Source of the DNA: an uncultured Acidimicrobiales bacterium | GTDB taxonomy: Bacteria > Actinomycetota > Acidimicrobiia > Acidimicrobiales > Bin134 | Direction: 5' to 3' | Assembly: GCA_951813325.1 (NCBI GenBank) | Contig: OX638350.1 | Location: 2,585,954-2,649,953, forward strand | Length of the DNA: 64,000 bases | Notes under the pieces: model-generated | What the model saw: only the letters and a program-made list of their open reading frames with translations | What the model was told of the DNA's origin: nothing | Database searches by the model: none | Part shown: piece by piece, positions 10,944 to 23,291 of the stretch | Layout: each line of letters begins with the position of its first letter | Position numbering within the stretch: position 1 is the first letter of the stretch | Position numbers and translations under genes: made by a program

Positions 10944-13454
10944 ATGGCCAACGCCTCTTCGAATCCCTATCGGCTGCCCAGGACGGTGGTGCCGCGGCGG
11001 TATGAGCTGCGGTTGGCGCCTGATCTGGAGGGGTTCGCGTTTGCGGGAGCGGTGGCGGTGGACGTCGAGGTGCTGGAGCCGGTTGGCGAGATTGTGCTCA
11101 ATGCGGCTGAGCTGGAGATCAGCGGCGGGGACCTCAACGGGACTGGGCTGGCGGGAATCGTCTATGACACCGAGCACGAGCGGGCTGTGCTCACGCTGGC
11201 CGAGCCCGTTGCGCGAGGCCCGGCTCGGCTGAACCTCAGCTTCACCGGCACGCTCAACGACCAGCTGCGGGGGTTCTACCGGTCCGCGTTCACCGATGAC
11301 AGCGGCGATGAGCGGGTGATCGCCACCACCCAGTTCGAGTCCACCAACGCCCGGCGGGCGTTCCCGTGCTGGGACGAGCCCGATCTGAAGGCGGTGTTCG
11401 AGGTGACCCTGGTGGTGCCCGACGACCTGATGGCGGTGTCCTCTGGGGCCGAAGTGGACTCCCAACCCCTCGGCGATGGTCGGCGGACAGTGTCGTTCGC
11501 CCCCACCATGGAGATGCCCACCTATCTGCTGGCGTTCATTGTCGGCCCACTGGAGGCCACCGACCCGGTGGACGTGAACGGAACGCCGCTGCGCGTCGTG
11601 CATCCCGTCGGCAAGGGCCACCTCACCGAGTTCGCTCTCGACGCCGGGGCGTTTTGCCTCAGCTTCTTCGAGGACTACTTCGCCATCGGCTATCCCGGCG
11701 ACAAGCTCGACTTGGTGGCCGTCCCCGATTTCGCTTTCGGGGCCATGGAGAACATGGGGTGCGTCACGTTCCGGGAGATCCTGCTTCTCATCGACCCCGA
11801 CAGCTCCACCCAGCAGGAGCGGCAGACCGCGGTGGACGTCATCGCCCACGAACTGGCCCACATGTGGTTCGGGAACCTGGTGACCATGAAATGGTGGAAC
11901 GGCATCTGGCTGAAGGAGGCGTTCGCCACGTTCTGCGAGATGCTGGCGGTGGACGCCTACCGGCCCGACTGGAAGCGGTGGCTGGCGTTCGGGCTTTCTC
12001 GGGCCGCGGCCTTCGACGTGGACGCTCTGGCCGCCACCCGGCCCATCGAATACCCGGTGGTCTCCCCCGCCGATGCCGAGGGCATGTACGACCTGCTCAC
12101 CTACGAGAAGGGGGCCGCCGCGGTGCGGATGCTGGAGCAGTACCTGGGTGCCGAGGCCTTTCGCGACGGGGTGCGCCACTACCTCCAGCGCCACTCCTAC
12201 GCCAATACCGAGACCCACGACCTTTGGGATGCCCTCACCGAGTCCACCGGCGAACCCGCCCGAGACGTGATGGATTCGTGGATCTTCCAGGGCGGCCATC
12301 CGGTGGTAACCGCCGCGGCCGACGACGCCGGCGCGATCACCCTGAGCCAAGAGCGGTTCCGCTACGACGGGCAGCCCGATGATGCCCACTGGCAGGTGCC
12401 GGTGGTGGTCGCAGCGGGTACCGATGCCGGTGAGCGCACCCAACGGCTGTTGCTGGAAGGCCCGGCGGTGATGGACGACGGCGGCTCAGCGTGGGTGATG
12501 GTCAACCCCACGGCCGACGGCTTCTACCGGGTTGCCTACGAGGGCGATCTGTTGGACCGGCTGCTGGACGGCGGCCCCGAACTGGATCCGCTCCAGCGAT
12601 ACGTGCTGGTGGACGACCAGTGGGCGCTGACAGTGGGCGGACGGTTGGACGTGGCCGGATACCTGCGGTTCGCCGAGCGCGTCGCTGCCGCCGAAGACGA
12701 TCTGGCCGTGTGGCGGAGACTGGCCGGAACGCTAGTGACCCTCGACCACCTGATATCCGACGATGGGCGGGCCGGGCTTCAATCCCGAGTACGGAATCTG
12801 GTCGGACCGGCTTGGGGCCGGGTGGGGTGGGAGCCAACCCGCGGCGAGGACGATCGCACCGGCGAGCTGAGAGGTGTGTTGGTCCGCACCCTGGCCCTGG
12901 GCGGCAACGACGCCGAGGCCGTCGCCTGGTGCCGACAGCTAGTGGAGTCCAAGGGCGTGGACCCCGCCCTGGCTGCGGCCGCCATCGCCGTCGTGGCCGC
13001 CACCGGCGACGAGGCTGACTACACCGAGATCCGCCAGCGCTTCGAGAACGCCCCCACCCCACAGCTTGAGCTGCGATATCTGATGGCGCTCACCACCTTC
13101 AATGGCTCAGCGCTCATGGACCGCACCCTGGCCGCCGCCCTCGACGGCACGGTGCGCAGTCAGGATGCCGGGTTCGTGCTGCGGGGCTGCCTGGACAACC
13201 GCGACCTCGGTCCGCAGGCCTGGGCTTTCATCGCCGGCAACTGGGATGAGATCAACCAGCGGCTCCCCTCCGCCATCGTCCCCCGAATGCTGGGCGGCAT
13301 CTGCGCCCTGTCCACACCCGAGTTGGCCACCGAAGTGCAGGCCTTCCTAGAAGCCCACCCTGTCCCCCAAGGGCCCCTGATCGTCGCCCAACACCTCGAG
13401 CGACTCGAGGTCAACGTCCGACTGCGATCCCGAGTGGTGAGCGTCCTGGGCTAG
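10944..13454 (+). CDS. pepN: Aminopeptidase N, M1 family
   Basis: Cytosolic zinc aminopeptidase of 836 residues that removes N-terminal amino acids from peptides. The exopeptidase motif GAMENMG is followed by the zinc site HELAHMWFG and, after 18 residues, the Glu of WLKEAFA (HExxH-x18-E). The C-terminal half is the helical ERAP1-like domain. There is no signal peptide. It starts at ATG 10944. It is convergent with hpnH, and the stop codons of both genes share one CTAG at 13451-13454. A second, secreted M1 enzyme is encoded at 39884. Confidence 0.93.
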   Translation: MANASSNPYRLPRTVVPRRYELRLAPDLEGFAFAGAVAVDVEVLEPVGEIVLNAAELEISGGDLNGTGLAGIVYDTEHERAVLTLAEPVARGPARLNLSFTGTLNDQLRGFYRSAFTDDSGDERVIATTQFESTNARRAFPCWDEPDLKAVFEVTLVVPDDLMAVSSGAEVDSQPLGDGRRTVSFAPTMEMPTYLLAFIVGPLEATDPVDVNGTPLRVVHPVGKGHLTEFALDAGAFCLSFFEDYFAIGYPGDKLDLVAVPDFAFGAMENMGCVTFREILLLIDPDSSTQQERQTAVDVIAHELAHMWFGNLVTMKWWNGIWLKEAFATFCEMLAVDAYRPDWKRWLAFGLSRAAAFDVDALAATRPIEYPVVSPADAEGMYDLLTYEKGAAAVRMLEQYLGAEAFRDGVRHYLQRHSYANTETHDLWDALTESTGEPARDVMDSWIFQGGHPVVTAAADDAGAITLSQERFRYDGQPDDAHWQVPVVVAAGTDAGERTQRLLLEGPAVMDDGGSAWVMVNPTADGFYRVAYEGDLLDRLLDGGPELDPLQRYVLVDDQWALTVGGRLDVAGYLRFAERVAAAEDDLAVWRRLAGTLVTLDHLISDDGRAGLQSRVRNLVGPAWGRVGWEPTRGEDDRTGELRGVLVRTLALGGNDAEAVAWCRQLVESKGVDPALAAAAIAVVAATGDEADYTEIRQRFENAPTPQLELRYLMALTTFNGSALMDRTLAAALDGTVRSQDAGFVLRGCLDNRDLGPQAWAFIAGNWDEINQRLPSAIVPRMLGGICALSTPELATEVQAFLEAHPVPQGPLIVAQHLERLEVNVRLRSRVVSVLG

Positions 13455-14458
13455 TTGGTGCCGATCGCGGCCCGAATCGACTCTTTCAAGGAGCCCATGG
13501 TGGCGAATACCGCGGTGGGCTCGTAGCCGCAGTGGGCCATGCAGTTCTCGCACCGGGGATCCTTCCCCCGGCCATAGCTGTCCCAGTCGGTGGTGTCGAT
13601 CAGCTCCTGGTAGGTCTCGGTGTAGCCGTCGGACATCAGGTAGCAGGGCCGCTGCCAGCCGAACACCGAGTAGCTGGGGATCCCCCAGGCGGTGCACTCG
13701 TACTCCACCTTCCCCTCCAGGAAGTCCAAGAACAGCGGCGTGTGGTTCAGCCGCCACTTCTTGCGCTTGCCCTCCGAGAAGGCGTCATGGAAAAGGCGCT
13801 TGGTCTGCTCCACCGGCAAGAAGTGCTCTTGGTCGGGAGCCTTCTCATAGGCATAGCCGGGCGAGATCATCATGGAGTCGACTTCCAGGTCGTCGTTCAA
13901 GAAGTCGAGCACGCTGCGCACGTCGTCGGGGCTGTCGGTGCTGAAGAAGGTGCTGTTGGTGGTGACCCGGAACCCCTTTTCTTTGGCCTCGGCGACGGCA
14001 TCCACCACCTCGTCGAAGACTCCGTCACGGGCCACGGCGAGGTCGTGGCGCTCCTGAAGCCCGTCCACATGGACCACGAAGGAGAAGTAGGGCGACGGCT
14101 TGAACTTGTCCATCTTGCGCCGGAGCAGCACCGCGTTGGTGCACAGGTACACGAACCGCTTGCGCTTGATGAGCTCGGCCACCATCTCGCCGATCTGGGG
14201 GTGCAGCAGCGGCTCGCCCCCGGCGATGGACACCATCGGGGCGCCGCACTCCTCCATGGCTGCCACCGCCTCATCCACGCTGACCCGCTTGCGCAGAACC
14301 TCGGTGGGGTACTGGATCTTGCCGCAGCCGGGGCACTCCAGGTTGCAGGCGAACAGCGGCTCCAACTCCACGATCAGCGGGTACTTCTCGCGGCGGCGCA
14401 GCTTGTTCTTGAAGACGTAGGCGCCAACCCTCGCTGCTTGGCGAACCGGGATGGGCAT
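13451..14458 (-). CDS. hpnH: Adenosyl-hopene transferase HpnH (radical SAM)
   Basis: Radical SAM enzyme of 335 residues that adds the 5'-deoxyadenosyl group of SAM to diploptene, the first step towards extended C35 hopanoids. CNLECPGC gives the CxxxCxxC cluster motif, and SIAGGEPLLHPQ is the SAM-binding GGEP region. The C-terminal Cys residues in RCENCMAHCGYEPTA are typical of HpnH. It lies one base after hpnG and ends the hopanoid operon. Confidence 0.93.
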   Translation of the reverse strand: MPIPVRQAARVGAYVFKNKLRRREKYPLIVELEPLFACNLECPGCGKIQYPTEVLRKRVSVDEAVAAMEECGAPMVSIAGGEPLLHPQIGEMVAELIKRKRFVYLCTNAVLLRRKMDKFKPSPYFSFVVHVDGLQERHDLAVARDGVFDEVVDAVAEAKEKGFRVTTNSTFFSTDSPDDVRSVLDFLNDDLEVDSMMISPGYAYEKAPDQEHFLPVEQTKRLFHDAFSEGKRKKWRLNHTPLFLDFLEGKVEYECTAWGIPSYSVFGWQRPCYLMSDGYTETYQELIDTTDWDSYGRGKDPRCENCMAHCGYEPTAVFATMGSLKESIRAAIGTN

Positions 14459-14459
14459 A

Positions 14460-15017
14460 TCAGCAAACCTCCTTGGTTAGCACTGGCGTCAACCGGCGAA
14501 TGGTGCGCAGTGCTCGATAGATCCTCGCGGGGGCCACAGCGGTCCGAAGCTCGTGGGTGGGGGTGTCGGTCACCACCCGCACCACCGCCGCCCGACCGCA
14601 ATGATGCTCCAAAAGCCACGCCGACTCCATATCGACCGCCACCGCGCCCCGATCGGCCAGCTCCTGTCGGCGCGGGCCAACCGCCAGCTTGGGGACGCAG
14701 GCAACCGGACCGGTGTGTACGGTGAACCCTGCTTGTACCAAGCTCATGGCCAATGCCTCAGTTTGGTGCAGGCTGATCGGTGCCACATCGGTGGCCGACA
14801 CTTCAGTGGCTACCACCACATCACCCGGCTCGATCCCGTCTACCACTGCCCCGGCCATACCCACCACCGCCACTGGCCCGCGGTTAGGCTCGACTCGGCG
14901 GCTCGACTTGGGGCCCATACCGGTGCACACAACTGTCGCCCCGCTGCCATCCCGGCGGATGCCCCTTCGTGCTGCACGGGCCTCCATGGCCAACGGACAA
15001 AGCAGCATCAGGCTCAC
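14460..15017 (-). CDS. hpnG: Hopanoid-associated nucleosidase/phosphorylase HpnG
   Basis: 185-residue nucleoside phosphorylase-fold protein. In the hopanoid pathway HpnG removes adenine from adenosylhopane, made by HpnH, to give ribosylhopane. Family features include VVCTGMGP, VVGMAGAVVDGIEPGDVVVA and GAVAVDMESAWLL, where VDMES is the ribose-binding Glu motif. The start is GTG 15015-15017, overlapping the shc stop as GTGA; an ATG three codons on is an alternative. Its pairing with hpnH matches the order of use in the pathway. Confidence 0.88.
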   Translation of the reverse strand: MSLMLLCPLAMEARAARRGIRRDGSGATVVCTGMGPKSSRRVEPNRGPVAVVGMAGAVVDGIEPGDVVVATEVSATDVAPISLHQTEALAMSLVQAGFTVHTGPVACVPKLAVGPRRQELADRGAVAVDMESAWLLEHHCGRAAVVRVVTDTPTHELRTAVAPARIYRALRTIRRLTPVLTKEVC

Positions 15018-16900
15018 TCTGAACCGCTCGTCGCTTGCACCCAGCGGCCCAAGGCCATCACCGGGAAAACCAGGCGGTACAGGTGGTACCGGATGTAGAA
15101 ATCCCCGGAGAAGCCGGTCCCGGTGTACCAAGGCTCGTCCCAGTCGCCGTCAGCGCGCTGGTTGTCCACCAACCAGGCCACTCCTCGCCGAGCCGCATCC
15201 CCGCCAGCTCGACCGGCTGCGATCAACGCCAGCAGCGCCCACGCTGTCTGCGACGGGGTGGACTCCCCGCGACCCCGCCAGTTGTGGTCGACATAGGAGC
15301 GCATATCCTCGCCCCAGCCGCCATCGGAGTTCTGCACCGACTCCAGCCACCGCAAGGCCCGCACCACCCGGTCGTCGTCGGTCGGCACGCCTGCGCTGAT
15401 AAGTGCGGGGACTGCCGCGCCGGTGCCGTAGATGTGGTTGGCCCCCCATCGCCCGTACCAGGATCCGTCGGCCTCCTGTTCGGCGCTCAGCCACTCAACC
15501 CCGCGGTCCACTGCCCGACGCTCCACCGGCAGGCCCAGCCCGTCGGCGTCAAGCTCGCACAGCATCTCCACCACGTGAGCGGTCACATCGGACGACGGCG
15601 GGTCGATGACCTCTCCGAAGTCGCAGAAGGGCAGATCGGCCACCAGCGGGGAGCAGTTGTCGGCGTCGAAGGCCGCCCAGCCGCCGTCAGAGCACTGCAT
15701 GCCTTGGGTCCACACCACCGCTCGCTCCAGCGCCTTTTGCACCGACTTGGCGTCGGGGTGGTGGATGCGGCGCAAGGCCAGGGCCACCTCGGCGGTGTCG
15801 TCCAGGTCGGGGTAAAAGCTGTTCTCGAATTCGAACGCCCATCCGCCGGGTGCCAAATGGGGGCGCTGCTCGGCCCAGTCGCCGACGACACGGACCTCCT
15901 GATCCAGCAGCCAACGGGCCCCGGCTTCCATCTTCGGGTCGTCTGGCGCCACGCCGGCGTCGGCCAGCGCCACCAGTGCCAGACAGGAGTCCCACACCGG
16001 CGACTGGCAGCACTCCAGCCGCCGCATGTCGTCTTCGACGATGGTCCAAGCGTCGAACCCCTCCAGCCCTTTGGCCAAGATGGGATGCTTCAGGGAATAG
16101 CCCCGCACGTACAGGGCCAACAGCGAGTACACCCACGGAGGCTGGATGCCGCCCCAGCAGCCGTCGGCCTCCTGGCGGGCCACGATCCACTGCTCGGCCC
16201 GGCTCAGCGCCCACTGCCGCAGCCGCTGGTACGGCCTCTGCTCATAGTGATGAAGCGCCCGGTCTATACGCTGGAATCGCCGGGCCACAGTGCCGTTCGG
16301 GGCGAGCCGTCTCTCTGCGGGAGTGCCCCCTGTGCGGATCTCGTCCAGGCTGATGCCCATGGACCGCACTGGGCGGTAGGCACCCACCACGGTAAGCGCG
16401 ACCACAGTCTGACGGGCCCAGCAGGCGAAGTCGTAGATGTTCAGCGGCACCCTCTTGGGCAAAAGGATCACCTCGGGCGGCAGCGCGGGCAGGTCCTCCC
16501 ACCGCCACAGACCGAACAGCGCCATCCATATCCGGGTGAAAACCCGGCTTTGCTCCAGGCCTCCCTCGCCGCGTATGTACGCGGCCGCCTTGGCCATGTG
16601 GTCGGCGTTGACGGGGTCGCCGGCATAGCGCAGCGCCCAATAGGCCTCGACAGTGACCGACAAGTCGGCCGGCCCCTGATAGTAGGTCGACCAGGTGCCG
16701 TCGGCCCGCTGACTGTGGCGGATCCAGTTGGCGGTCTGGCGGGTGATCTCCGGGTCGGCGATGCCCAAGAACTCCCGCAGAAACAGATCCTCAGCCTCGA
16801 TGGAAACGTTGGTCTCCAATTCGTCCTTCCACCATCCCTCGGTGTCTTGGAGGCTCAGGAGCCGGTCACGAGCCCGGGACAGGCATTGCTCTGCACCCAT
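15014..16900 (-). CDS. shc: Squalene-hopene cyclase
   Basis: Membrane-associated class II triterpene cyclase of 628 residues that converts squalene to hopene and hopanol. The protonating Asp lies in PDLDDTAEVALAL (DxDDTA). Several QW repeats are visible, including QRADGTWSTYY, QEADGCWGG, CSDGGWAAFDADN, QEADGSWYGRWG, QNSDGGWGED and QRADGDWDEPW. The length is normal for bacterial SHC. The ATG at 16898-16900 overlaps the polyprenyl synthase stop by one base. Confidence 0.96.
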   Translation of the reverse strand: MGAEQCLSRARDRLLSLQDTEGWWKDELETNVSIEAEDLFLREFLGIADPEITRQTANWIRHSQRADGTWSTYYQGPADLSVTVEAYWALRYAGDPVNADHMAKAAAYIRGEGGLEQSRVFTRIWMALFGLWRWEDLPALPPEVILLPKRVPLNIYDFACWARQTVVALTVVGAYRPVRSMGISLDEIRTGGTPAERRLAPNGTVARRFQRIDRALHHYEQRPYQRLRQWALSRAEQWIVARQEADGCWGGIQPPWVYSLLALYVRGYSLKHPILAKGLEGFDAWTIVEDDMRRLECCQSPVWDSCLALVALADAGVAPDDPKMEAGARWLLDQEVRVVGDWAEQRPHLAPGGWAFEFENSFYPDLDDTAEVALALRRIHHPDAKSVQKALERAVVWTQGMQCSDGGWAAFDADNCSPLVADLPFCDFGEVIDPPSSDVTAHVVEMLCELDADGLGLPVERRAVDRGVEWLSAEQEADGSWYGRWGANHIYGTGAAVPALISAGVPTDDDRVVRALRWLESVQNSDGGWGEDMRSYVDHNWRGRGESTPSQTAWALLALIAAGRAGGDAARRGVAWLVDNQRADGDWDEPWYTGTGFSGDFYIRYHLYRLVFPVMALGRWVQATSGSE

Positions 16901-17898
16901 CAGAAATCCCTTCCAACGATGAATTCGGCCAGTGATCGCATCTCGCCCACCACCTCGGCCACAACCGACTCGTTGTCCGAGATGGAATCGAGGGCCGACA
17001 TCGCCAACCCGTAGTGGGTCCGGGCCAGCGCCTGAGTGCCTTCCCGGCCGCCTCCCACATCCACCAGAGCTCGGGCCGCGTCCACATCTCCGGCTTCCAA
17101 TTGGGGACGGGCATAGAGTTCAGCCAAGTCGTCGGCAACTGATGTGCCGCTGTTGAGGGCGATCACCACCGGCACCGACTTCTTGCGCTCCCGCAGATCA
17201 GCTCCCTTGGGTTTCCCGGTGCGCTCAGGGTCGCCCCATATGCCCAGCAGATCGTCCACCGCCTGAAACGCAACCCCCATATGGGCGCCGTATTCGGCCA
17301 AACCATGTATGACCTCGTCGTCGGCCCCAGCCAAGATGGCCCCCACCGAAGCGGCGTAAGACAAAAGTGCTCCTGTCTTGCCCTGTTCCATGGCAAGGCA
17401 GTCCTCCAGGGTGACGCTGGGCCTGTCCTCGAAGGCCATGTCCATGCTCTGGCCGGCGATCATTTCCGAAACCGCCTTGGCCAGATGCTTGGCCGCTTTG
17501 ACCCTGGGCGGTGTGGGGTCGGATATCAAAGCCTCGAAGGCCAGAGCGTGCAGGGCATCTCCCACCACGACGCCGACGCCGACGCCGAACTTGGCCCACA
17601 CTGTGGCCCGGTGCCGGCGCTCGGCATCATTGTCGATGATGTCATCGTGGATCAGTGAGAAGTCGTGGATCAGTTCGATGGCCGCTGCTCCGGGCACCCC
17701 GGTCTGCGGGGGAGCACCGACGGCTTCGGCCGACAATATTGCCAGCGCGGGACGGGTACCCTTGCCCCGGCCTTGGAAGTGGTATTGGGCGGGAACCCTA
17801 AGCTCGTCACACAGCCCGCCCAGAGCGGCGGCGATAACAGGGTCGACCAAATCTCTGGCTCGCTCAAGAATGGCCGGAGCCGGCGGTCCACCGCTCAT
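16900..17898 (-). CDS. Polyprenyl (probably farnesyl) diphosphate synthase
   Basis: Class I isoprenyl diphosphate synthase of 332 residues. The first Asp-rich motif is LIHDDIIDND and the second region is QAVDDLLGIWGD. Phe lies five residues before the first Asp (FSLIHDD), where aromatic side chains block long products in FPP-type enzymes. I therefore infer a short product, FPP or GGPP, feeding HpnC/D/E in the same operon. The start is ATG 17896-17898, preceded by AAAGGA and overlapping the hpnE stop as ATGA. Confidence 0.88.
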   Translation of the reverse strand: MSGGPPAPAILERARDLVDPVIAAALGGLCDELRVPAQYHFQGRGKGTRPALAILSAEAVGAPPQTGVPGAAAIELIHDFSLIHDDIIDNDAERRHRATVWAKFGVGVGVVVGDALHALAFEALISDPTPPRVKAAKHLAKAVSEMIAGQSMDMAFEDRPSVTLEDCLAMEQGKTGALLSYAASVGAILAGADDEVIHGLAEYGAHMGVAFQAVDDLLGIWGDPERTGKPKGADLRERKKSVPVVIALNSGTSVADDLAELYARPQLEAGDVDAARALVDVGGGREGTQALARTHYGLAMSALDSISDNESVVAEVVGEMRSLAEFIVGRDF

Positions 17899-19328
17899 GC
17901 GATCGTCCTTTCTGATTGATCTTGCAATTCGGGCGCTCTCGCGCCGGCACCGCGGCAGTGATCCAGCGCGAGGCGGGCCGCCTGTGTGCCGGAGCGGACG
18001 GCGCCCTCCATGGTCGCCGGCCACCCGGTATCGGTCCACGCTCCGGCCAAGAACAGACCGTCGATGGCGGTGGTCGGACCGGGACGAAGCCGCCGGGTGC
18101 CGGGACGGCCGGCGAAGGTTGCCCGGTGCTCTCGGGTAACCACGGCATCCAGCAATTCGGCTTCGGCGGAGAGCGGGAAAAGGTCGGCGAGCGCCGACCG
18201 ATAGCGCTCGATTATCTCAGCAGGACGGTCGCCGATCTCGTCGAAGGCCGCTGACTGCGACACGGCCACAACCTGCTCGTCCCCGTTGTTGGCACCACTG
18301 GGCTTTCCCCCGGCCCAGTGGGCGGCCTCGGTGCGGTCGAACACGAACTGCACCGGCGAGTCAAGAGCTGCGGTGAACGGCACGTCCATGATCTGGCGGT
18401 CGAACACGAAATGCACGTTGAGGATGGGTGAAATTCCCAGGTCGGCCAGCTCGGACTGCCGGGCCACGGTGTCAGGCGGCACCAGATCGCCCACGACATC
18501 GTGAGGCACGGCGAGGATCACCGCGCCGGCATCCATCCGCTGTCCGCCGGCGGCCAGCGAAGGGCCGTGGCCCACGGCTTCCACTTGGGCTTGGAGCCGG
18601 ATGCTGCCGCCCTGGGCGGTGATCACCGCGGCGGCGGCATCGCCGTGGAGGGCCGACAGCGGAACCCGAGCCCAGCCCAGATCGGCGGAATCGGCATCGT
18701 CCAAGAGCCCGGTGCGGAACACCCTTGCCGCCAGGCTCAAAGAGGCGTCGTCGGCCCTCAGGTTCACGGTGGGCAAGCAGATCAAGTCCCAAAGACCGGC
18801 AATGGCCTGATCGGTCTCGCCCCGGAATCGAAGCCACCCCCCGAAGCTCGTCTCGTCGGTGTCCGAGTCGTCGGGATCAAGGCGGCGCAGGGCCAGCGCG
18901 GTGCGAACCGCCCGCAGGCGATCGGCCAGCGAGAGCGGGCTGTAGCGCAGAAGCGACCGGGCCAGATGCAGGGGGGCCGGCGCGCCGGTGCGAGAGAGGC
19001 GCGCCGGGCGGCGGCCGGGACGCATCACCGGTACCGACAGCCGGGGCTGCTCGGCTACATGGTGGGCCACGCCCAAGCGATCCAGAAAGGCCCGGTACTC
19101 GGCGCAGCACCGCATGAACACGTGCTGGCCGTTGTCGTACCAGCGTCCGTTGCGCTGGAACGACCAGGTGGCCCCGCCCAACCGGGGGGCCCGCTCATAC
19201 AGCGTCACCTGCGCTCCGCCGTCGGCCGCGGCTACCGCCGCGGCCAAACCGGCCAAACCTCCTCCGACCACTGTGATCTTCGGCATCGCACCGGCATCGG
19301 TCGTCTTGTCGGATACCGCAGAGATCAT
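17895..19328 (-). CDS. hpnE: Hydroxysqualene dehydroxylase HpnE
   Basis: FAD-dependent amine oxidase-fold protein of 477 residues that reduces hydroxysqualene to squalene. The N-terminal dinucleotide motif is VVGGGLAGLAAAVAAADGG, followed by LGGATWSF and DNGQHVF typical of HpnE. The C-terminal FAD motif is GLFLAGAWTDTGWPATMEGAVRSG. The ATG at 19326-19328 overlaps the hpnD stop as ATGA. Confidence 0.92.
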   Translation of the reverse strand: MISAVSDKTTDAGAMPKITVVGGGLAGLAAAVAAADGGAQVTLYERAPRLGGATWSFQRNGRWYDNGQHVFMRCCAEYRAFLDRLGVAHHVAEQPRLSVPVMRPGRRPARLSRTGAPAPLHLARSLLRYSPLSLADRLRAVRTALALRRLDPDDSDTDETSFGGWLRFRGETDQAIAGLWDLICLPTVNLRADDASLSLAARVFRTGLLDDADSADLGWARVPLSALHGDAAAAVITAQGGSIRLQAQVEAVGHGPSLAAGGQRMDAGAVILAVPHDVVGDLVPPDTVARQSELADLGISPILNVHFVFDRQIMDVPFTAALDSPVQFVFDRTEAAHWAGGKPSGANNGDEQVVAVSQSAAFDEIGDRPAEIIERYRSALADLFPLSAEAELLDAVVTREHRATFAGRPGTRRLRPGPTTAIDGLFLAGAWTDTGWPATMEGAVRSGTQAARLALDHCRGAGARAPELQDQSERTIA

Positions 19329-20179
19329 GGGGCAACTCCAACCAGGCTGCGGATGGCCACCCAGGCCTTTTCCCTGGTGGAAAGCGACAATCGACCCTCG
19401 AGCACAGCTGTGGGCGCAGCCACGATACGGGCCAGCAGCCGGTGGTAGATCCCGGCCATCGCCCCGGTACAGGCCCTGCTGCGGTGATCCAGCATCTTGA
19501 GCAGATTCAGCCCCTCGGCAAAGCGCCGCTCAGCCCGCTCCGCCTCGAACAACACCAGAGCGCCCACCGCATCGATCGGCCCGGTCAGGTCGGGAGAGCA
19601 GCCAAACTGCTCGATGTCGGCGGCGGGCAGGTAGACCCGGCCCATGCCCCGGTCCTCCACGATGTCGCGCAGGATGTTGGTGAGCTGAAGGCCAACGCCC
19701 AGCACATCGGCCAGCTCGCCGGCCTCTTCGGCATCGCCGGTGGTACCGAACACTCCCAAAGACAGGCGGCCCACCGATCCGGCCACCAGCCGGCAATACT
19801 GCTCGGTGTCTTCGATGGTGGCGTACACCTTCCCCACCGCGTCCTGCTCGCATCCGTCGACGATCTCGTTCAGCGCGGCCACCGGGATGGGGAATCGGTC
19901 GATGGCGTGGCGCAGCCCTACCAGCACCGGATCTTCAGAATCGCTCAGGCCGCCGTCGGCCAGGGTGTCGATGTCGGCCCGCAACTCGGCCAGTCGGACA
20001 AGCTTCTCGTCTCGCGGAAGCGGGCCGTCGCCCACGTCGTCGATGCGCCGGGCCATGGCATACAACGCGGACATGGCCAGGCGCTTCGGCTTGGGCAGCA
20101 GCCGGATGCCGTAGGAGAAGTTGCGGGCCTCGCTCCGGGTGATCTCCTCGCACCGCTGGTAGGCGTCGACTGCCCTCAT
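19325..20179 (-). CDS. hpnD: Presqualene diphosphate synthase HpnD
   Basis: Squalene/phytoene synthase family protein of 284 residues that condenses two FPP to presqualene diphosphate. It carries both Asp-rich motifs: ARRIDDVGDG and LTNILRDIVEDRGMGRVYLP. Start ATG 20177-20179 (MRAVDAYQRCEEITR) is five bases after GGAGG and overlaps the hpnC stop as ATGA. Confidence 0.92.
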   Translation of the reverse strand: MRAVDAYQRCEEITRSEARNFSYGIRLLPKPKRLAMSALYAMARRIDDVGDGPLPRDEKLVRLAELRADIDTLADGGLSDSEDPVLVGLRHAIDRFPIPVAALNEIVDGCEQDAVGKVYATIEDTEQYCRLVAGSVGRLSLGVFGTTGDAEEAGELADVLGVGLQLTNILRDIVEDRGMGRVYLPAADIEQFGCSPDLTGPIDAVGALVLFEAERAERRFAEGLNLLKMLDHRSRACTGAMAGIYHRLLARIVAAPTAVLEGRLSLSTREKAWVAIRSLVGVAP

Positions 20180-21078
20180 CCTCTCCTCCATCGGGCCGCG
20201 GCGTTCCGCGCGGCTCGAACCGCTTTGGCCTCGGTCACCTGGCGAGGGGCGACCAGCCGAACCGCATGAGCCGCGGTTCGGACCTTTGTGGGGGTCCGCA
20301 GCTTTCTCAGCACGTCGTAGCCGGCCCCGGCAATGGCATCCAACGCGGCAAATCCCCCGGCGGCGTAGCCGGCCACCATCACCTTGGCCCACCCGTTGAG
20401 CGAGGCCACCAGCGGGTCGCCCCGGCTCAGCAGCCCGCGGGCGGTGTCGCACTGGTGGGCCACCAGCCTGCGGAGCTGCCCAGACGCCCGGTGCGCCCCA
20501 AGATCTTCCTCCGCCACGCCGAAGCGGGTCATCTCGTCGGCGGGGAGATATATGCGGTCCTTCTCGGTGTAGTCCTCGCCAATGTCCTGAAGGTGCTCGA
20601 CTAGTTGCAGGCCAGTGCATACCGCATCGCTGAGGGCGATGCGCTCGGGGGTGGCGGCATCGAACACCGCCAGCACCAGACGTCCCACTGGGTTGGCCGA
20701 GAGCGCGCAGTACTCGGCCAATTCGGCCTGTGTCCGATAGCGGTGCTTGCGCTGATCGAGCCGGTTGGCCCCGATGAGCGCCAGAAACGGCTCATCGTCG
20801 AGATCCAGCTCGGCGAGGATGGACGTGAGCTGGATCATCACCGGGTGGGTGGCATGACCGGTGCGGGCTCGGCCGAGCTCGGTCTCAATCCAGTCCAACG
20901 CGGCCAAGCGGTCGCCGCCATATTCGTCTCCGATATCGTCCACCAGTCGGGCGAACCCGTAGACGGCCAGCAGATGGGCGCGGGGACGCGCCGGTAGAGC
21001 CCTCATCGCAACCGGGAAGTTCTCGCTTCGGCTCTGGGCCATGATCGAATTCAAATCGAACCCGATGTCGGTCTGCAC
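20176..21078 (-). CDS. hpnC: Hydroxysqualene synthase HpnC
   Basis: Squalene/phytoene synthase family protein of 300 residues that converts presqualene diphosphate to hydroxysqualene. Asp-rich motifs are FARLVDDIGDEYGG and EHLQDIGEDYTEKDRIYLP; SENFPVAMRALP near the N-terminus is typical of HpnC. The start is set at GTG 21076-21078 (MQTDIGFDLNSIM). A longer reading to 21222 would run through the promoter and operators, so it is rejected. First gene of the hopanoid operon. Confidence 0.9.
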   Translation of the reverse strand: MQTDIGFDLNSIMAQSRSENFPVAMRALPARPRAHLLAVYGFARLVDDIGDEYGGDRLAALDWIETELGRARTGHATHPVMIQLTSILAELDLDDEPFLALIGANRLDQRKHRYRTQAELAEYCALSANPVGRLVLAVFDAATPERIALSDAVCTGLQLVEHLQDIGEDYTEKDRIYLPADEMTRFGVAEEDLGAHRASGQLRRLVAHQCDTARGLLSRGDPLVASLNGWAKVMVAGYAAGGFAALDAIAGAGYDVLRKLRTPTKVRTAAHAVRLVAPRQVTEAKAVRAARNAAARWRRG

Positions 21079-21155
21079 AACGCCCCCCGCTGTGGCTCGA
21101 TTGCCAGGGCTAACCCACTGGTCAGCGGGCTGGTCGCGGCATTCTAAACTTTGCT

Positions 21156-21170
21156 GTGACCAGTGGTCAC
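21156..21170. promoter_or_regulatory. Palindromic operator 1 upstream of hpnC
   Basis: Perfect inverted repeat with 7-base arms, GTGACCA-G-TGGTCAC. Its centre is about 33 bp, or three helical turns, from the second copy at 21189-21204. It overlaps the -35 region of a possible secondary promoter whose -10 would be TAGAAT (minus strand, 21141-21146). It is a likely binding site for the MerR-TetR hybrid regulator encoded just upstream. Confidence 0.65.
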
Positions 21171-21188
21171 TTTTTTGCGAACAATAAA

Positions 21189-21204
21189 GTGACCATTGGG
21201 TCAT
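21189..21204. promoter_or_regulatory. Palindromic operator 2 upstream of hpnC
   Basis: GTGACCATTGGGTCAT, an imperfect copy of operator 1 that shares the GTGACC half-site. It lies right after the -10 hexamer of the main predicted promoter and would cover the transcription start, a position suited to repression. Confidence 0.6.
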
Positions 21205-21207
21205 CTT

Positions 21208-21236
21208 TTTGTACGCGCTCAATCCGGGGCTGTCAA
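21208..21236 (-). promoter_or_regulatory. Near-consensus promoter of the hopanoid operon
   Basis: Read on the minus strand: TTGACA (21231-21236), a 17-base spacer, then TACAAA (21208-21213). The -35 lies inside the last codons of the regulator gene. The predicted start site falls in operator 2. The exact -35 and optimal spacing make this one of the clearest promoter matches in the window. Confidence 0.6.
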
Positions 21237-22013
21237 GGCATTGACGGCATCGGGATCGTCGAAGTTGGGACGATCGGCGAAACGACCCATGAGACCCTCG
21301 GCAAAAATGTGGGCGATGGCGTCCATGATAAGGGCGCCGGCGAGTCGGTGGCCCCGGGGATCGTCGGACAAGGCCTCGCCGAGACGCTCGGCTAGTCGCC
21401 AGAACACCCGTTGGGCGGCCGCGGCGTGCTCCACTTGGCCCTGCACCGAGCGTTTGGCCACTTCAAGCATGATGGGCAGGCCGGGAAGCAGGGTCTGGGC
21501 CAGACGACGGGTGAGCTCCTCCCGGCTCAGGCCGATTTGGCCGTCGATCGCGGCCGCGAAGTTCTCGGCCGTGCTGTCCACCACCGCTTCCACCGCCTGA
21601 AAGAACAGGTCTTGCTTTGAGCGGAAATAGCGATAGAAGGTTCCCTTGGCCACACCAGCTTGAGCGCAGATATCGGCCACGCTCACCTCTGTGTAGCCCC
21701 TCAAGGCGAACTCCTGGATAGCCACGTCCCGCAACTGCTCGCTGCTGTCGGTCAAGTTGGCCACGTCGGCGTGGTCGGGATTCTCGGCGTCCATGATCTG
21801 GGCAATGTGGCGCAGCGGCAGGCGGTGTCGCTCTCGCAGATCCCTTATCCGCTCCACCGCTTCGGCGTGGCGCTGGCTGTACAGAAAACGGTTGGCCGCG
21901 GCTCGGCGGGGCGCGGGCAAAAGACCCATCCGCCGGTAGTGGTGGATGGAGGCAGCCGGCACACCGGTGCGGGCGATCAGCTCGCTGATGGGGAACTCGC
22001 CGGGAGCGCCCAT
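21219..22013 (-). CDS. MerR-TetR hybrid transcriptional regulator
   Basis: 264-residue regulator with two DNA-binding modules. Residues 1-75 are MerR-like: ISELIARTGVPAASIHHYRRMGLLPAPRR, then LRHIAQIMD. Residues about 88-140 are a TetR helix-turn-helix: GYTEVSVADICAQAGVAKGTFYRYFRSKQDLF. The C-terminal part should bind a ligand and dimerise. It ends at the hopanoid promoter and its operators, so it probably controls the hpn operon and perhaps itself. Ligand unknown. Start ATG 22011-22013. Confidence 0.85.
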   Translation of the reverse strand: MGAPGEFPISELIARTGVPAASIHHYRRMGLLPAPRRAAANRFLYSQRHAEAVERIRDLRERHRLPLRHIAQIMDAENPDHADVANLTDSSEQLRDVAIQEFALRGYTEVSVADICAQAGVAKGTFYRYFRSKQDLFFQAVEAVVDSTAENFAAAIDGQIGLSREELTRRLAQTLLPGLPIMLEVAKRSVQGQVEHAAAAQRVFWRLAERLGEALSDDPRGHRLAGALIMDAIAHIFAEGLMGRFADRPNFDDPDAVNALTAPD

Positions 22014-22088
22014 GCCTCCACTCTTATTCGCTGGGCTGCTCTACGCCAGCGCGCCGAGGAAATCGCGTCCGCGAATCCAAGAAAGCCC

Positions 22089-23291
22089 CTATTCTTCCTC
22101 GGCAATTTTGATCGCCTCGTCGAAGCTTGTGCCCTGCTCGATGAGGTTGCGGTACTTCATCACGTGGCGGGGCCGGTTGAAGCCGAGCACACCGACCAGG
22201 CGGCCGGCCCGGCCGTAGAGGGCGGCGAACCGCCGGTCCTCGGTCGATCCGGTGATGATGCGCACCTCGTCGTCGGGCCGGGCCCGGCCGGCAAGTTGAA
22301 TCTTGCGGTCGTACTGGTCGCTCCAGAACCACGGCACCGGGCTGTAGGGCTGGGCCTCGTCGTCGGAGACCAGCAAGCGGCGCACCGCGTGCTGGCCCTG
22401 CTCGATGGCGTTGTCCCAGTGCTCGACCCGCATGGTCTCGCCGAACAGGCGGTTGGGCCACCGGGCCACGTCACCGGCAGCGGCGATGCCGGGGGCGGCC
22501 AAGCAGGTCTCGTCGCACACCACGCCGCTGTCCAACTCCAATCCCGAGCCTTCCAGCCACTCGGTGTTGGGGATAACCCCGATGCCCACCACCACCACGT
22601 CGGCATCCACCGTCGTTCCGTCGCTCAAGTTCACCCGCTCCACCCGGCCGTGGCCGTCGAATCCGTCGACGCCCACTCCGAGCCGCAGATCCACCCCGTT
22701 GTCCCGGTGGACGTCAGCACACACCGTGCCGACCTCTGTTCCCAGGACGCGGCCCAAAGGCACCGGCAGGGCCTCGACAACCGTCACTTCCAAACCCCAG
22801 CCTCGGGCAGTGGCCGCCACCTCGGCACCAATAAACCCGGCGCCCACCACCGCCACCCGCTGGGGGGAAGCCTCCAGCTCGGCGCGTATGGCCAGGCAGT
22901 CGTCCAAGCCCCGCAAGGTGTAGATGCCGTCGAGTCCGCCGCTGGGCAACTCCCGGCAGCGGGCCCCGGTGGCGATGAGGACGCCGTCGGCAGTGACCGC
23001 GGATCCGTCGTCAAGGGTGACGGTGCGGCGGGCGACGTCAAGCCCTACCGCCCGACGGCCCAACCGCCAGTCGGCGTCCAAATCCTGGAGTGCATCGTCG
23101 TCGGACAGCGCGATGCGGCCTGGCTCCCAGTCTCCGGCGAGAAGCTGCTTGGACAGGGGAGGCCGGTCGTAGGGCTGGTGGGGCTCATCACCGACGATGG
23201 TGATGGTCCCGTCGAATCCGTCTCGCCGCAGCGTCTCCGCTGCCCGGGTCCCGGCCAGCGACGCTCCGACGATTGCTAGAGAACGCAGCAG
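22089..23291 (-). CDS. FAD-dependent ferredoxin reductase (probable CTG start)
   Basis: Passes electrons from NAD(P)H to a small ferredoxin. The 400-residue reading has an N-terminal FAD motif IVGASLAGTRAAETLRRDG, PYDRPPLSKQLL, the NAD motif VVGAGFIGAEVAATARGWG and the second FAD motif PGIAAAGDVARWPN. The FAD-binding N-terminus is in frame but has no ATG, GTG or TTG before the fold begins. The best start is CTG 23289-23291, seven bases after GAGGAG in the end of the ferredoxin gene. A TTG at 23079-23081 would remove the FAD fold. Confidence 0.83.
   Translation of the reverse strand: MLRSLAIVGASLAGTRAAETLRRDGFDGTITIVGDEPHQPYDRPPLSKQLLAGDWEPGRIALSDDDALQDLDADWRLGRRAVGLDVARRTVTLDDGSAVTADGVLIATGARCRELPSGGLDGIYTLRGLDDCLAIRAELEASPQRVAVVGAGFIGAEVAATARGWGLEVTVVEALPVPLGRVLGTEVGTVCADVHRDNGVDLRLGVGVDGFDGHGRVERVNLSDGTTVDADVVVVGIGVIPNTEWLEGSGLELDSGVVCDETCLAAPGIAAAGDVARWPNRLFGETMRVEHWDNAIEQGQHAVRRLLVSDDEAQPYSPVPWFWSDQYDRKIQLAGRARPDDEVRIITGSTEDRRFAALYGRAGRLVGVLGFNRPRHVMKYRNLIEQGTSFDEAIKIAEEE

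Follow-up and report, generated by a model that had tools for sequence, protein, structure and literature searches.

A MerR-TetR hybrid protein as the probable dedicated regulator of the hopanoid operon in Acidimicrobiales

The hybrid regulator and the hpn operon

The window, that is, the whole stretch of 64,000 nucleotides analysed here (contig OX638350.1 of an uncultured Acidimicrobiales bacterium), contains a series of genes arranged head-to-tail on the minus strand in the order regulator, hpnC, hpnD, hpnE, polyprenyl synthase, shc, hpnG and hpnH. These genes, their upstream neighbour and the candidate control elements are as follows:

22089..23279, minus strand: NAD(P)/FAD ferredoxin-reductase-like gene (Pfam), directly upstream of the regulator, a genus-specific neighbour
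21219..22013, minus strand: MerR-TetR hybrid regulator, 264 aa (Pfam, AlphaFold2 model, Foldseek)
21231..21236, minus strand: predicted -35 hexamer TTGACA (from the sequence), overlapping the end of the regulator gene region
21208..21213, minus strand: predicted -10 hexamer TACAAA, after a 17-nt spacer (from the sequence)
21180..21213, strandless: possible extended operator with outer mirrored arms (AACAA...TTGTA), suggested by arm-similarity statistics
21189..21204, strandless: putative operator 1, a TGACC-N4-GGTCA palindrome (GTGACC-ATTG-GGTCAT), over the predicted transcript start
21156..21170, strandless: second palindrome GTGACC-AGT-GGTCAC with a 3-nt spacer, confined to the species of the window
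21108..21135, minus strand: predicted 5'-leader hairpin of the hpnC transcript, 12 pairs (alignment-based)
20176..21078, minus strand: hpnC, squalene synthase HpnC (NCBIfam TIGR03464, above cut-off)
19325..20167 (start approximate), minus strand: hpnD, squalene/phytoene synthase family (Pfam SQS_PSY; the orthologue is kept near the loci of relatives)
17895..19328, minus strand: hpnE-like FAD amine oxidoreductase (Pfam Amino_oxidase)
16900..18039, minus strand: polyprenyl diphosphate synthase (Pfam polyprenyl_synt)
15014..16900, minus strand: shc, squalene-hopene cyclase (Pfam SQHop_cyclase N and C)
14460..15131, minus strand: hpnG-like hopanoid-associated phosphorylase (NCBIfam TIGR03468, 55 bits, below the cut-off of 187)
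13451..14458, minus strand: hpnH, adenosyl-hopene transferase (NCBIfam TIGR03470, above cut-off)

The reductase-like gene and the regulator gene are co-directed and separated by a 75-bp gap, so that they are probably co-transcribed. For hpnC, we propose the GTG at 21078 as the start, judging from the GCGGGGG followed by GTG that is conserved in the alignment. A longer hpnC frame, from a TTG at 21222 across the palindromes, was rejected as coding because the same stretch is promoter and operator in relatives.

Between the palindromes and hpnC, the alignment of 15 congeners supports a hairpin in the leader of the transcript: 91.7% of the alignment cells are paired, compared to at most 53% when the pairing is slid, and the stem, of up to 12-16 bp with a GACC loop, shows G:U pairs and some compensatory changes. 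An Rfam scan of positions 20900-22200 detected no known RNA family. The hairpin is a possible second layer of control of hpnC.

The regulator carries two DNA-binding modules, one of the MerR type and the other of the TetR type, as originally predicted from the sequence, and both score far above the curated Pfam cut-offs and are confidently folded in the structural model. The MerR_1 domain spans residues 8-76 (52.5 bits against a cut-off of 21.6) and TetR_N spans residues 95-139 (69 bits against 24), so that by these profiles the protein has both the N-terminal winged helix of the MerR family and the helix-turn-helix (HTH) of the TetR family. An AlphaFold2 model, built with 37 orthologues as input, has a mean pLDDT of 88.3, with confident MerR and TetR parts, and falls to 61-78 in the residue blocks covering 71-90, the low-confidence stretch between the two parts. 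The MerR winged helix is modelled with helices 9-16, 20-28, 47-63 and 67-77 and wing strands 36-39/42-45; at the other end, helices ~133-245, predicted with high pLDDT, form a C-terminal ligand/dimer domain of the TetR fold.

In a Foldseek search, the best matches were FasR, EthR and SaFadR (probability 1.00), and the solved structures closest in fold belong to TetR regulators, of which many have lipid-like ligands (FasR, EthR/EthR2, SaFadR, Bacillus subtilis FadR). None of the structure matches listed combined MerR and TetR in one chain. The model contains neither the long dimerisation helix nor the separate effector domain of MerR proteins; instead, helix 67-77 runs directly into the TetR helix 79-105. 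The MerR domain, nevertheless, is unlikely to be a relic because, like the TetR domain, it retains invariant residues; its recognition segment, GVPxSTIHHYRRLGLLP, is strongly conserved among the orthologues.

Conservation of the promoter and operator in the genus

Read along the minus strand, the DNA separating the regulator from hpnC contains TTGACA-17-TACAAA, immediately followed by ATGACC-CAAT-GGTCAC. The predicted transcript start, ~21200-21202 (6-8 nt past the -10), falls within this first palindrome, in agreement with the original prediction of a consensus promoter and of a palindrome covering the start of the hpn transcript, and the layout is conserved. The family to which the window belongs consists of one genus with 22 genomes, related to metagenome-assembled genomes (MAGs) named Candidatus Poriferisocius and to the marine group Sva0996. 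The regulator is present in 19 of the 22 (85-92% identity where full length), and the promoter and the first palindrome are kept in 18 of these 19, with one core mismatch in one congener (L125/L008). Another promoter reported by the scanner, GTGACC-18-TAGAAT, was rejected, as it shows no conservation.

The single exception (L135 (~4280)/L021, G001, the Candidatus Poriferisocius aerobius MAG) has the regulator and lacks the promoter and operator, and is also the only regulator-bearing congener in which the -35 TTGACA is not invariant. Here the regulator stop adjoins hpnC, whose first codons are missing, in an incomplete metagenome assembly; the loss is either a real deletion or an assembly error.

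We searched the 22 genomes for further sites with sequence patterns. RTGACC-N4-GGTCAY occurs 0-3 times per genome, close to the level of the reversed-pattern control, and all ten non-hpn sites examined lie within long open frames, at places that do not align with each other; the operator is the sole non-coding match of its pattern in the genus. A pattern with two mismatches was discarded as swamped by chance (174 matches against 224 for the reversed control). A regulon beyond hpn was rejected because the other sites are coding and none is shared, and the regulator thus appears to have one conserved target.

The second palindrome, which reads GTGACC-ACT-GGTCAC on the minus strand and lies downstream of operator 1, is a different matter. 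The two palindromes predicted as a matched pair, 33 bp apart on the same face of the DNA, both exist, with a centre-to-centre distance of 33.5 bp; this is ~3.2 turns, so that they are roughly, and no more than roughly, on one face. They are not a matched pair, however: the spacers are 4 and 3 nt long, and the second palindrome is absent from every congener compared, being restricted to the species of the window. A pattern search of the 3.59-Mb genome finds TGACC-N3-GGTCA only 3 times, so that the occurrence of the second palindrome at this position is improbable by chance; it is, perhaps, a recent auxiliary site.

Linkage of the regulator, operator and operon across families

The association of the regulator with hopanoid synthesis extends far beyond the genus. 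A profile search of a 248-genome sample of the order detected the hybrid in 40 of the 49 genomes that encode squalene-hopene cyclase and in none of the 199 others (Fisher p = 8e-38, uncorrected for kinship). Among 20 distant loci fetched from other families, with regulators of 35-48% identity, hpnC is located downstream of the hybrid in all 19 that could be tested; the twentieth (L106) stops at a contig end. A scan with one genome per species yielded 78 hybrid loci, 67 of which have hpnC downstream on the same strand; in the other 11, dxs is followed by the contig end (4), the contig ends within 340 bases (6) or the arrangement is ambiguous (1; L179). The predicted link to the hopanoid operon survives this comparison: in 71 of the 72 loci whose contigs extend far enough to tell, the orthologue stands ahead of the hpn operon or of a dxs gene at its head, and most of these loci share the promoter and operator layout. 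The same linkage is found in a family outside the order (f132).

The search for the palindrome upstream of hpnC in related genomes, originally suggested as a check, covered 67 loci. A core with at least 9 of the 10 bases is present in 55 of them, compared to 1.7 expected from first-order shuffles, and in ~10 GTDB families the promoter and palindrome are again located ahead of the hpn genes or, where dxs comes first in the operon, ahead of dxs. Many of these 67 loci repeat the arrangement TTGAC(A/G)-17-TA(C/T)A.. followed immediately by the core; the -35 is TTGACA or TTGACG in many other families, and the -10 of relatives varies between TACAAA, TATAAC and TATATC. Most of the 12 loci scoring below 9 belong to one clade that has a variant core, GTGGACC...GGTCAC, at the same place; in three loci (L144, L198, L199) we found no convincing site. 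In two loci (L143, L145), the regulator and hpnC are separated by a YjbQ-family gene (TIGR00149 for L145), and a site of the type TGACT-GGGT-AGTCA is located between this gene and the regulator. Within the 250 bases before the regulator start, 1 of 80 loci has a core scoring 9 or more, so that control of the regulator by itself is unsupported.

The position of the site follows the operon. In several loci of the Acidimicrobiaceae, the operon is headed by dxs (TIGR00204), the gene for 1-deoxyxylulose-5-phosphate synthase, the entry enzyme of the MEP pathway of isoprenoid synthesis. Downstream of the regulator, dxs was observed in L150, L166, L168, L171, L182, L184, L186, L187, L191, L194 and L195, and it precedes hpnC in those whose contig continues; the supply of isoprenoids thus seems to be regulated jointly with hopanoid synthesis in these lineages. 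In six dxs-headed loci (L150, L166, L168, L171, L191, L195), the site falls between the regulator and dxs, immediately after the regulator. Conversely, where other DNA separates the regulator from hpnC (L151, L153, L173, L178), the site is near hpnC and not behind the regulator.

The latter loci bear on an alternative reading in which the palindrome, lying where the regulator gene ends, works as an RNA hairpin or a terminator; the scanner does report terminator-like stems here. When the hpn promoter is separated from the regulator, the site goes with the promoter; moreover, the T-tailed stems are mostly on the plus strand, opposite to both genes, and the minus-strand match is a short stem with an interrupted T tail located exactly at the start of the conserved promoter. 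We therefore regard a terminator as extremely improbable.

Regulator and operator are also lost together. Eight of the nine squalene-hopene-cyclase genomes that lack the hybrid also lack the site before hpnC, including two reduced members of the genus of the window (G006, G017); with the regulator lost, hpnC of G017 directly adjoins the reductase gene. The ninth genome (G109) has kept the promoter and site, with no hybrid detected in an incomplete metagenome assembly. It is conceivable that the palindrome serves another regulator, with the adjacent hybrid uninvolved: TGACC-N4-GGTCA is a generic TetR-like site, and G109 has it without a detected hybrid. Such a bystander role is, however, very improbable, considering that site and hybrid appear and vanish jointly in most genomes, that no second credible copy of the site is seen in the genus, and that the hybrid is linked to the hpn operon over ~10 families.

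Proposed mode of action of the regulator

The explanation that we consider very likely is that the hybrid is a dedicated, cis-encoded regulator of the hopanoid operon, a TetR-type dimer that occupies TGACC-N4-GGTCA, blocks the transcription of hpnC and is released by a hydrophobic metabolite. The regulator would dimerise through the C-terminal helices of its TetR part, and the dimer would bind the palindrome over the transcription start of the TTGACA-17-TACAAA promoter; once bound, it would most likely block transcription of hpnC and of the genes behind it, until a hydrophobic metabolite entering the TetR pocket releases it. The MerR winged helix probably makes further contacts with the DNA flanking this palindrome. 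We infer the binding of the hybrid to the palindrome; repression is the effect expected because the operator sits over the transcript start of the promoter, that is, from position, and the fold points to a lipid-like ligand. Several observations fit the repressor model less well, namely, the 12 loci below 9/10, the site in G109, the regulator without promoter or operator in G001/L135, and family f56, where the palindrome seems to sit between the putative -35 and -10 and where the regulator could activate.

MerR proteins are classic activators, and f56 in particular could fit a MerR-like mechanism in which the regulator acts on RNA polymerase at the promoter. For most loci, however, the site is over the start and not in the spacer, and the spacer is mostly of the optimal 17 nt (in the window, in the congeners and in many other genomes) rather than the 19-20 nt typical of MerR-activated promoters. 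In the model, furthermore, the MerR module ends at helix 67-77 and continues into the first TetR helix, with no evident MerR-type dimerisation coil. Activation of this kind is, accordingly, unlikely.

A refinement of the repressor model, tentative at this point, is a composite operator of ~34 bp, in which, for each dimer, the inner palindrome would be contacted by the pair of TetR HTHs and the outer arms by the pair of MerR winged helices. The arms are mirrored beyond what composition predicts (the within-locus similarity, summed over 19 lineages, is 97, compared to a mean of 73.4 and a maximum of 87 among 400 shuffles), and arms within a locus are more similar than arms swapped between lineages (p = 0.014). 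Positions 4-12 of the downstream arm hold 0.37 bit, against 0.20 at positions 16-40, although no promoter element is needed there. In the protein, the strong conservation of the MerR recognition segment is consistent with such a role, and the clade with arms like CTATACG has P-V-P-T/S before IHHY where the others have P-A-S/A-T/S. These features suggest, as a working hypothesis, that the DNA on either side of the TetR site is contacted by the MerR domains. The evidence does not go further because the left arm overlaps the -10 element and because the switch in arms and residues occurred in one clade, a single event that cannot show covariation; besides, the arm spacing differs by 1-2 nt or more among families, and several clusters have no arm excess of their own.

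Relationship to other regulators

MerR-TetR fusions occur elsewhere in the phylum (L233-L238; families f106, f112, f126, f131), with several copies per genome, and many of them have the INYYVREGLLPPPLKTAPNMAYYD motif. They share with the hpn regulator the same two domains in the same order but have only ~30% identity to it. In a tree of 45 sequences, all 39 hpn-linked hybrids are on one side of a branch (support 100/99) and the six other hybrids are on the opposite side; none of these six has hpn genes nearby. Given these separate hybrids, the fusion type is not new; it is the orthologous, hopanoid-linked group that is distinctive.

With FasR, EthR/EthR2, SaFadR and B. subtilis FadR, the regulator has in common the TetR HTH, the helical C-terminal ligand/dimer domain, a short palindromic operator at the promoter and control of lipid genes, which is here predicted; it differs in the extra N-terminal MerR winged helix and the hopanoid operon as target, and the identity is ~20%. 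CadR, TipA and CarH share the N-terminal winged-helix HTH with its wing, but the hpn regulator has no evident MerR dimerisation coil or sensor domain, probably dimerises by its TetR part and is associated with a promoter spacer of 17 nt.

Dedicated regulation of hopanoid genes is indeed little described, as the original prediction held. The open literature, outside of which most subscription journals lie, yielded no dedicated regulator of the core hopanoid operon and no described MerR-TetR hybrid; what it contains is the control of hpnP by EcfG in Rhodopseudomonas palustris (Kulkarni et al. 2013, as cited in PMC4337730) and, in Streptomyces, hopanoid transcription that depends on growth stage, with possible internal termination (PMC8914203; PMC5358736). 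EcfG is likewise a case of transcriptional control of a hopanoid gene, but it is a sigma factor of the global stress response, and its target is the C-2 methylase gene hpnP, whereas the regulator described here is proposed to be dedicated to the core operon.

Implications for hopanoid synthesis

Comparison with relatives bears out the initial proposal of a hybrid regulator of the hopanoid operon: the hybrid itself, its promoter with an operator at the transcript start, and its association with the operon all stand, with the amendment that only one of the two palindromes is conserved. Hopanoids are major, sterol-like membrane lipids of bacteria and the source of hopane biomarkers, and the regulator is, very probably, the on/off switch of the hopanoid operon's own. 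With the regulator, operator and promoter now named, conserved over the order and present in cultured acidophiles, the signal that prompts hopanoid production becomes directly testable; culturable relatives with the orthologous system include Aciditerrimonas ferrireducens (strain MV1, L167) and Acidiferrimicrobium (sp. IK, L152). The double-fold architecture raises the question of how two different types of HTH in the same protein work together on a single site; that a single polypeptide places two unrelated DNA-binding folds on one composite operator, with the TetR HTHs on the inner TGACC palindrome and the MerR domains on the outer arms over the -10, and so acts as the dedicated hopanoid sensor-switch of the whole order, is a doubtful possibility. 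What emerges is a local regulator of the TetR type that carries a MerR reading head in addition and is linked to the synthesis of hopanoids across an entire order of bacteria.
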